From assembly GCA_003222675.1 (NCBI GenBank), contig QHWT01000063.1:49670-113669 (forward strand): a stretch of DNA of 64,000 bases. Reading direction: 5' to 3'. The DNA comes from Acidobacteriota bacterium (GTDB lineage: Bacteria; Acidobacteriota; Vicinamibacteria; Vicinamibacterales; 2-12-FULL-66-21). Positions 43,163 to 46,870 of the stretch are shown here, one piece after another. The notes under the pieces are model-generated. The model was not told where the DNA came from. It searched no databases and saw only the letters and a list, made by a program, of their open reading frames with translations. A program made the position numbers and the translations under genes. Each line of letters starts with the position of its first letter. The first letter of the stretch is position 1.

Positions 43163-43264
43163 AACGGGGACACTCACAGTTCCGCGGCATCAGAACGGGG
43201 ACACTCACAGTTCCGCCGCCAGAAGCGTCCGATTGTGGGAAGAACTGTGAGTGTCCCCGTTCTG
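43161..43264. repeat. REP-like cluster, family C (GGGGACACTCACAGTTCC)
   Basis: Two direct copies of AGAACGGGGACACTCACAGT (43161 and 43191) and one inverted copy AACTGTGAGTGTCCCCGTTC (43243-43262) form a BIME-like cluster directly after the stop codon at 43162. A related pair is at 46766-46828. Such palindromes are typical of REP sequences moved by TnpA-REP (RAYT) enzymes; no such gene is in the window. The rest of the gap to 43383 shows nothing clear. Confidence 0.82.
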
Positions 43265-45490: not shown

Positions 45491-46216
45491 ATGAAGAAAT
45501 GGCTCCTGCGCGGCGCCGCCCTGATCATCGTCTGTTACCTCGCGCTCTTCAGCACCGTGATGGCCGCGATGCTGCAGACGCCGGAACGGTTCGGCGCGTT
45601 CATGAAGCACATGCCCCCGGCCCTCGTCTGGGCCACGCTGCCCGCGCCGCGGATGTGGCTCTGGGCGCGGAAGGGCACGCTCGCCGAGGGAGAACGTGCA
45701 CCCGACTTCAACCTGCGCACGGCGAAGGACCGCCACCGGCGCGTCGCGCTCTCGTCGTACGAGGGTCAGCGGCCCGTCGTGCTCGTGTTCGGCAGCTACA
45801 CCTGACCGCCGTTTCGCCGGGCGGTGCCCGCGCTCAACAAGCTTTACCGCGACTACCGCGATCGCGTGGCGTTCCACGTCGTGTATATCGAGGAAGCGCA
45901 CCCGATCGATGCCTGGCAGGTTTCGGACAACAAGAAGGACGCCGTGCTCGTCGCATCTACGAAGACGGCGGACGAGCGCGACAAGGTCGCGAACGTCTGC
46001 GTCGTCAAGCTGGGGATCGAGCTGCCGGCGCTGATCGACGAACCAGACAACCGCGTCGAGCGCGCGTATACGGCATGGCCCGATCGACTCTATGTGATTA
46101 ACCGCGACGGCACGATCGCCTACAAGAGCGCGGCAGGACCCTTTGGATTCAAGCCTGAGGACGTCGAAGCGGCACTCAAGCGGATCCTGCCGGCGCCTGT
46201 TCCCGTTGCACACTAG
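45491..46216 (+). CDS. Iodothyronine-deiodinase-like selenoprotein (in-frame UGA = Sec105)
   Basis: One frame runs from the ATG at 45491 to the stop at 46216, interrupted only by TGA at 45803-45805. The context VLVFGSYT-U-PPFRRAVPAL is the deiodinase active site (family form FGSxTUPPF). Further family marks are the N-terminal membrane anchor (LLRGAALIIVCYLALFS), the thioredoxin-like strand RVAFHVVYIEEAHPIDAW with the conserved EEAH, and RLYVINRDGTIAYKSAAGPF. Full length is 241 residues, close to vertebrate deiodinases. A hairpin with a GGU loop lies 18 nt after the UGA, where bacterial SECIS elements sit. Without Sec insertion only a 104-residue fragment would be made. In bacteria the true substrate is unknown; reductive dehalogenation or a peroxiredoxin-like role is possible. 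sel genes are not in the window. Confidence 0.88.
45803..45832 (+). promoter_or_regulatory. Sec UGA codon and candidate bacterial SECIS hairpin
   Basis: After UGA (45803-45805), CGGGC (45818-45822) and GCCCG (45826-45830) form a perfect 5-bp stem closing a GGU loop (45823-45825), extendable by two pairs past one bulged base. The loop begins 18 nt after the UGA. Published bacterial SECIS models need a small apical loop with G/U about 16-37 nt downstream. A competing ACCGCC/GGCGGT hairpin also exists. Confidence 0.65.
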
Positions 46217-46229
46217 CGCGGGAAACACG

Positions 46230-46700
46230 ATGACCCTGCGCATCCATCTCGTGTTCCCGTTCGTCGTCGCAGGTCTCGCCCTGGCATCAGACGCACCGGC
46301 ACGCGATGGCGCCCGCCCGCAGGCGGCCGCCAGTGCAGTGGCGCGGGTGACGGCTGCGGACGCCGCGCGCTTCCGCGCGATGACCAGCGGCGACCTCGAT
46401 GAACTGGGCCGCCTCCTTGCGGACAATCTTGTCTATGTCCACTCGAGCGGGAGGATCGAAACGAAGGTGCAATTTCTGGAGAGCCTTCGTTCCGGCCAGT
46501 TGAAGTACACGAGCATCAGTCCTTCGGACCTTGTCGTCCGCGCGAACGGATCTCTGGGGGTCGTGACCGGCCGCGCGCAAGTGAAGGTTGTCTCCGGCGG
46601 CCAACCGCGGGAGTTCACGATCCGGTATACGGCGGTCTATGCGTTGAACTCCGGCGTCTGGCAACTGTCATCCTGGCAATCGACCAGGATCGAATCGTAA
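46230..46700 (+). CDS. Secreted NTF2-like (SnoaL/DUF4440) protein
   Basis: 156 residues from the ATG at 46230 with a signal peptide (IHLVFPFVVAGLALASDAPA). The mature part is an alpha+beta cone: AADAARFRAMTSGDLDELGR, LLADNLVYVHSSGRIETKVQ, FLESLRSGQLKYTSIS, and the strand end YALNSGVWQLSSWQST. NTF2-like proteins bind small ligands; some are isomerases. No catalytic residue can be assigned. It starts 13 bp after the deiodinase-like gene and may be co-transcribed. Confidence 0.83.
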   Translation: MTLRIHLVFPFVVAGLALASDAPARDGARPQAAASAVARVTAADAARFRAMTSGDLDELGRLLADNLVYVHSSGRIETKVQFLESLRSGQLKYTSISPSDLVVRANGSLGVVTGRAQVKVVSGGQPREFTIRYTAVYALNSGVWQLSSWQSTRIES

Positions 46701-46765
46701 GAACGGGTGATGAGTCTGGTTGCTCTGATCGCGTTCCTGGCGTTCGCATCAGAAGGAGAAGCGAA

Positions 46766-46828
46766 GTGAAACGGGGACACTCACACTTCGTCCCATTTGT
46801 GGAATTAACTGTGAGTGTCCCCGTTTCT
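46766..46828. repeat. REP-like palindrome, family C (second locus)
   Basis: AACGGGGACACTCACACTTC (from 46770) and AACTGTGAGTGTCCCCGTTT (46806-46825) are near-perfect inverse copies; a degraded third copy (AAGTGTGACTGTCACCGTTT) follows. Same family as 43161-43264. It fills the gap between the NTF2-like gene and the broken small gene. Confidence 0.8.
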
Positions 46829-46870
46829 GAAGTGTGACTGTCACCGTTTCCCGTTTCGGCCTGTACAGAG

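Follow-up and report, generated by a model that had tools for sequence, protein, structure and literature searches.

A deiodinase-family selenoprotein gene with an in-frame UGA and a bacterial-type SECIS hairpin in Acidobacteriota

The window, by which we mean the whole stretch of 64,000 nucleotides that was analysed (contig QHWT01000063.1 of assembly GCA_003222675.1, from a soil-dwelling Acidobacteriota bacterium), contains a locus at which mechanical ORF calling with the standard bacterial code returns two small reading frames, one of 104 amino acids (45491-45805) and one of 130 amino acids (45824-46216). This is the split that the original prediction had expected of automatic annotation, the claim being that the two frames are a single gene interrupted by a TGA codon. 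The family profile agrees, as PF00837 (T4_deiodinase) matches the joined read-through product at 1.4e-31 (110 bits, against a gathering cut-off of 27). The piece after the TGA matches PF00837 by itself at 2.2e-20 and contains YIEEAHPIDAW at the place given in Table 1, so that family sequence does resume in frame past the codon; the piece before the TGA, taken alone, has weak AhpC-TSA similarity only. When the 241-residue product was aligned with deiodinases, the closest sequence matches among solved structures were mouse Dio3 (4.9e-22) and Dio2 (1.3e-19), and the TGA codon aligned exactly with the Sec that is mutated to Cys in the solved Dio2 and Dio3 proteins, i.e. with the deiodinase active-site position (GSYT-U-PPF) to which it had been assigned. 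The source genome has no PF00837 gene other than this one, which we call dio from here on.

Table 1. Features of the dio locus, in coordinates of the window
Feature	Position	Strand	Details
Deiodinase-like selenoprotein gene, Sec105 included	45491..46216	+	241 codons; ATG 45491, stop TAG 46214-46216
Predicted N-terminal transmembrane helix, residues 2-27	45494..45571	+	Hydropathy and charge; AlphaFold helix 2-27
Active-site motif GSYT-U-PPFR, residues 101-109	45791..45817	+	Conservation in 70 homologues
In-frame TGA read as Sec105	45803..45805	+	79/79 nearest relatives; Dio2/Dio3 alignment
Bacterial SECIS, apical part	45816..45833	+	GGU loop 45823-45825 on a 7-bp stem that has one bulge
YIEEAHPIDAW (Tyr132, Glu135, His137, Trp142)	45884..45916	+	Equivalent to Dio3 Tyr197, Glu200, His202, Trp207
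Cys170 codon, +65 from Sec, candidate resolving cysteine	45998..46000	+	69 of 70 close homologues have Cys
Next gene, small DUF4440/SnoaL-like protein	46230..46700	+	Pfam DUF4440 2.5e-23; 13 nt after dio stop

The DUF4440 gene that follows dio is possibly co-transcribed with it, in this genome only; other loci do not share it as a conserved neighbour, and it has no part in the mechanism proposed below. No conserved operon was found across the loci, and no neighbour names a substrate or a reductant. The commonest neighbours are TonB-dependent receptors and ABC permeases, and because we regard both as generic families, expanded in Acidobacteria, and their positions vary, we did not infer an operon from them. 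We also note a palindromic, REP-like element with GGGGACACTCACA repeats at 43166-43258 and 46765-46845; GGGGACACTCACA is present in 5 exact copies and 6 with 2 mismatches, where about 1 is expected by chance. Rfam miRNA matches in the region were dismissed as spurious, being caused by this palindromic repeat.

When 84,980 species genomes were scanned, more than 570 relatives were recovered, of which the 80 closest were kept. The active-site codon was readable in 79 of these and was TGA in all 79, never TGC, TGT, TAA or TAG; because the TGA stands at the same codon and the frame stays open beyond it in every one of these nearest relatives, and likewise in relatives from 11 genomes of the class, we can exclude chance or an assembly error as its origin. 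Nearly all of the 80 relatives are labelled Acidobacteriota, and one was deposited as Nevskia soli. Across the aligned homologues of the phylum, TGA is found in 28 of 39 and Cys in the remaining 11, and the UPPF type carries Sec in every readable copy. A UGA-containing PF00837 gene occurs in 11 of the 193 genomes of the class and in more genomes of the phylum, and its occurrence is patchy even inside the family of the source organism. No relative was found in viral contigs, and plasmids yielded one distant annotated deiodinase-like protein only (27.5% identity).

Several homologues depart from this pattern. First, L036, L041 and L066 form a second group of Sec PF00837 paralogues, which lack the N-terminal anchor and read FGSFT-U-PYC (UxxC); they are probably the UxxC type described in reviews of the family. 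Second, L032 and L055 are Cys-form homologues (SCPLF/SCPNF) with a long upstream sequence in frame, which is TPR-like in L032. Third, L031 and L033, from the same order as the source organism, look broken or frameshifted and could be decaying copies or assembly errors. Placing the animal deiodinases on the tree joined them to L043-L046 with weak support (79/53) and a long branch, and we make no claim from it.

In the folded RNA, the GGU loop of the hairpin that follows the UGA lies 18-20 nt past that codon and, as in bacterial SECIS elements, presents a G in the apical loop. Hairpins were scored against a null in which the protein and GC3 were kept and synonymous codons were redrawn. With this null, 15 of 28 Sec homologues, compared with none of 11 Cys homologues, had a hairpin at p<0.05, and stem scores were higher in the 28 Sec than in the 11 Cys homologues (p 1.6e-6). 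The hairpin of this gene gave p 0.13 when assessed alone; the support for it is comparative and does not come from this one hairpin. Total folding energy was rejected as evidence for a SECIS: that of the gene's own 45 nt is not special (shuffle z 0.08), and total-MFE z-scores discriminate only weakly between Sec and Cys homologues (-0.92 versus -0.10). It was therefore necessary to score the position of the hairpin and to analyse covariation. The Rfam search of the region returned no SECIS family match.

L024 and L025, in which the loop is offset by one base, were excluded from the covariation count. On nine aligned sequences, none of 500 shuffles reached the observed covariation score. In the wider clade, C at position 15 occurs together with G at position 30 in 35 of 35 cases, whereas a base other than C at position 15 goes with G30 in 1 of 33, both counts ignoring relatedness. 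Positions 15 and 30 are synonymous third bases, of an Arg codon and an Ala codon, and the third base of a Val codon tracks base 20. Parsimony on a tree built from the rest of the protein requires 7 and 8 changes in the two columns but 8 joint changes for the pair, a collapse that control columns do not show. These comparisons provide strong evidence that the RNA stem is under selection, with repeated compensatory synonymous changes. We further note that, in the GSCTU subclade (L026-L029 and L035), the SECIS-like loop is displaced by about 4 nt away from the UGA (to +22) and caps a near-perfect 7-bp stem, which shows some tolerance as to where the loop is placed.

The source assembly (7.16 Mb in 152 contigs, 99.9% complete) encodes SelA (539 bits), SelB (335 bits, 638 aa) and SelD (344 bits), as well as a tRNA-Sec with anticodon UCA detected by both Infernal (61 bits) and ARAGORN. 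The organism therefore has the complete gene set of a Sec-decoding bacterium (selA, selB, selD and tRNA-Sec, i.e. selC), for which a search had been proposed as a check on the read-through. The selD gene (L012) has an in-frame TGA of its own (CAG-U-ASKL), and the hairpin after it resembles the one after the dio UGA. Further selenoproteins were sought via PF00578 only, which revealed two peroxiredoxin-like genes with TGA at the catalytic position (L149, G000:C6:247649-248023, and L148, G000:C20:96641-97006; motifs ..GTWUPNC.. and ..FTGGUTAEC..). The genome thus has at least four selenoprotein genes with selD counted, three of them UGA-interrupted genes besides dio. The presence of selA was rejected as a marker because it does not discriminate: in the class, 147 of 193 genomes have selA above cut-off. 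On the opposing side, G003, a Sec-dio genome from this class, has no clear selA, though tRNA-Sec is present in it, and four fragmented Sec-dio genomes gave no clear tRNA-Sec.

Two other readings of the TGA were weighed against decoding as Sec. If the TGA were a real stop, the locus would hold two separate genes or a nonsense pseudogene with an independent or dead downstream ORF, as the mechanical split and the broken-looking relatives L031 and L033 might be taken to imply, but the TGA is fixed among the nearest relatives, the protein is conserved on either side of it, the SECIS covaries and the Sec machinery is complete, leaving this reading next to no weight. A variant code or suppressor that reads TGA as Trp, Cys or another residue would also keep the frame open across it but is hardly credible, given that genes here terminate normally with TGA and TAG, that tRNA-Sec, SelA, SelB and SelD are all in the genome, that TGA recurs at catalytic Cys/Sec sites in four redox or selenium-metabolism genes, and that SECIS-like hairpins follow the TGA in both dio and selD. 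Overall, the original reading of one deiodinase-like gene recoded at UGA agrees with every test applied, and we conclude from the sequence that dio is a genuine selenoprotein gene of the deiodinase-like family, although iodothyronine deiodinase activity is not demonstrable; its identity as a selenoprotein gene and its SECIS we regard as virtually certain.

The AlphaFold model, made with 70 sequences of the gene's own clade (pLDDT 93.2, pTM 0.89), has a helix at residues 2-27, short helices to residue 59 and then a Trx/Prx domain. Compared with PDB structures, the predicted fold comes closest to Dio2 (Z 21.4) and Dio3 (Z 20.7), with AhpE (17.9) and ResA (17.7) next; on the predicted model, the domain thus has the fold expected of PF00837, i.e. 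Trx/Prx and closest to solved deiodinases. The net charge is +3 before the N-terminal helix and +1 after it, which suggests an N-in/C-out orientation, so the catalytic domain most likely faces the periplasm. We consider it likely that the product is a membrane-anchored periplasmic Sec reductase of the Trx/Prx type. The original prediction likened the full length and the N-terminal anchor to those of vertebrate deiodinases; this is correct for the architecture, in overall length and in the single N-terminal TM helix, but not for the sequence, in which homology begins at about residue 65.

Residues G101, S102, T104, U105, P106, P107, F108 and R109 are invariant in 70 homologues. The equivalents of Dio3 Ser167, Thr169, Sec170, Tyr197, Glu200 and His202 (S102, T104, U105, Y132, E135 and H137) are invariant in the 70 sequences, those of Arg225 and Arg260 are invariant in the clade, and that of Trp207 is nearly so; for the roles of Dio3 residues in the relay and in holding the hormone, we relied on published work (PMC7506546, PMC11592359, PMC9141512). 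The equivalents of Dio3 Cys168, His219, Cys239, Phe258 and Arg275 are not kept. The site of His219, a residue present in Dio1-3, is Thr157 here and mostly Pro in the homologues, and the site of Cys239, the distal Cys conserved in Dio1-3, is Pro179 in 70 of 70 homologues. Where a basic residue clamps the hormone carboxylate (Arg275 in Dio3 and Lys241 in Dio2; PMC11592359, PMC7506546), this protein has Ala214/Ala215, and in the homologues position 214 is variable and position 215 is Pro or Ala. Judged by these residues, the protein has the catalytic machinery of a deiodinase but not the machinery for holding the hormone. Because the hormone-holding residues are not conserved, “deiodinase” names the family and not the activity; the description of the product as iodothyronine deiodinase-like is upheld for membership in PF00837, whereas the residues tested do not support placing it with the functional iodothyronine deiodinases.

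The catalytic domains of these proteins usually have one Cys besides the Sec, at a position that is fixed within each subclade but differs between subclades (+65 in the clade of this gene, and +87, -2, +48, +58 and +3, relative to Sec). Two Cys-form homologues (L032 and L055) also keep a Cys at +65/+66. In Dio1, a Sec-Cys selenenyl-sulfide is formed with the Cys at -2 (PMC9141512). There are exceptions, as the sister gene L030/L068 lacks Cys170 or any Cys and L064 lacks the partner Cys, and a resolving Cys is thus not universal. This distribution is most simply explained by a resolving cysteine that was relocated during evolution, and for the present protein we lean towards Cys170 as the resolving residue. 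We found no earlier statement of a relocating resolving cysteine in the open-access literature searched, and such a relocation would suggest a simple test of Sec-enzyme recycling in this fold.

In the mechanism that we propose from the computed selenoprotein, SECIS and fold, SelB and Sec-tRNA(UCA) would bind the SECIS hairpin just 3' of the UGA, leading to the insertion of Sec105. The 241-residue product would have one N-terminal membrane helix and its PF00837 thioredoxin/peroxiredoxin-fold domain on the periplasmic side. The Sec105 selenolate, aided by a Ser102-Thr104-Tyr132-Glu135-His137 hydrogen-bond network, would attack an electrophilic atom, which may be a peroxide oxygen, an organic halogen or another soft electrophile. 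Cys170 would then capture the oxidised selenium as a selenenyl-sulfide, and a thiol reductant would reduce the Sec105-Cys170 bond; the topology, the role of Cys170 and the reductant are the parts of this scheme that we infer. We have high confidence in the explanation as a whole, that of a recoded selenoprotein acting as a periplasmic membrane-anchored Sec/Cys reductase.

With respect to the substrate, the protein may be a variant Sec peroxiredoxin that acts at the membrane and there reduces H2O2 or hydroperoxides of organic/lipid type, in which case Cys170 would resolve and the deiodinase signature would reflect the ancestral fold only. The 1-Cys peroxiredoxin AhpE is the next structural match after Dio2 and Dio3, the AhpC-TSA profile scores 47.8 bits, which is above its cut-off, Ser102 at -3 recalls the T/SxxC motif of peroxiredoxins, and there are other Sec peroxiredoxins in the genome. 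The full peroxiredoxin active-site motif is PxxxT/SxxC(U), however, and its Pro at -7 is missing here, Leu98 being found instead; further, the relay residues Tyr132, Glu135, His137 and Trp142 and the deiodinase-type insertion (strand 127-132 to helix 160-174) are strictly kept, and both would be superfluous for a plain peroxidase. We place hydroperoxide reduction somewhat short of an even chance. A second option, which appears rather unlikely to us, is an aryl-halide reductive dehalogenase that would remove I or Br from halogenated phenols, tyrosines or soil organohalogens by selenenyl-halide chemistry. Here, the Sec, the Ser/Thr and the Tyr-Glu-His relay of deiodination by Dio1-3 are invariant, and the predicted fold matches Dio2 and Dio3 above all other solved structures, but Dio3 Arg275, His219 and Phe258 are not conserved, no halogen-related gene lies nearby and the relay would suit any leaving group that is protonated. 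It is improbable, in our estimate, that soil Acidobacteriota have a periplasmic membrane-anchored Sec dehalogenase for aromatic I or Br, with a Cys that shifts between subclades, of which the animal deiodinases are an offshoot; if true, the dehalogenase reading would make the thyroid-hormone deiodinases a specialised branch of an old bacterial dehalogenase family. The remaining substrate options are other electrophiles or disulfides.

Deiodinases govern thyroid hormone in vertebrates and have had known bacterial relatives since 2005. This gene and its close relatives are well defined, widespread and nearly always Sec, and ordinary ORF calling splits the gene in every genome examined. Their catalytic residues are intact and the hormone-binding residues are absent, so that a role of this chemistry that precedes thyroid hormone becomes directly testable.

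A 2005 study of the Sargasso Sea reported bacterial deiodinase-like selenoproteins with a bacterial SECIS (4 Sec and 6 Cys forms; Zhang et al., PMC1088965), the set was extended in 2008 (Zhang and Gladyshev, PMC2398784), and reviews list the family under the motif UxxC, with a function that is largely unknown (PMC9312934; 2026 review PMC13188914). The present gene has PF00837, a SECIS directly after the UGA and an active-site Sec in common with them but, unlike the UxxC proteins of the reviews (PMC9312934, PMC13188914), it has UPPF and no Cys at +3; further, the known sets come from marine metagenomes, whereas the clade described here is from Acidobacteriota and nearly all Sec. The kind has therefore been known since 2005, and dio is a further member, of an animal-like UPPF subtype. 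No earlier report on the Acidobacteriota Sec clade was found in the open-access literature searched, and the features apparently unreported before are an Acidobacteriota clade that is essentially all Sec and one subclade-specific conserved Cys. The NCBIfam profile NF038285 (deiodinase_rel) matches over profile positions 179-340 (3.5e-57), with 194 bits falling below its 250-bit cut-off, and the N-terminal half of the profile has no counterpart in this protein or in those sister clades that were tested. AhpE and other peroxiredoxins, and ResA/DsbE, share the thioredoxin-like core (Z about 16-18), but the protein has no CxxC and no PxxxTxxC proline, and it has in addition the deiodinase insertion and the EAHPxDxW segment. 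Its likeness to Dio1-3 consists of GSxTUPPF, the Ser/Thr/Sec/Tyr/Glu/His relay, the loop-D start AHPxDxW, a single N-terminal membrane helix and the Trx/Prx fold (Z about 21); the active site of Dio1 is UPSF, not UPPF. It differs from Dio1-3 in lacking equivalents of Arg275, His219, Phe258, Cys168 and Cys239 and having a Cys at +65 instead, in an identity of about 28-30%, in a host in which thyroid hormone is not expected, and in a SECIS that is bacterial and lies within the coding sequence, where animals have theirs in the 3'UTR.
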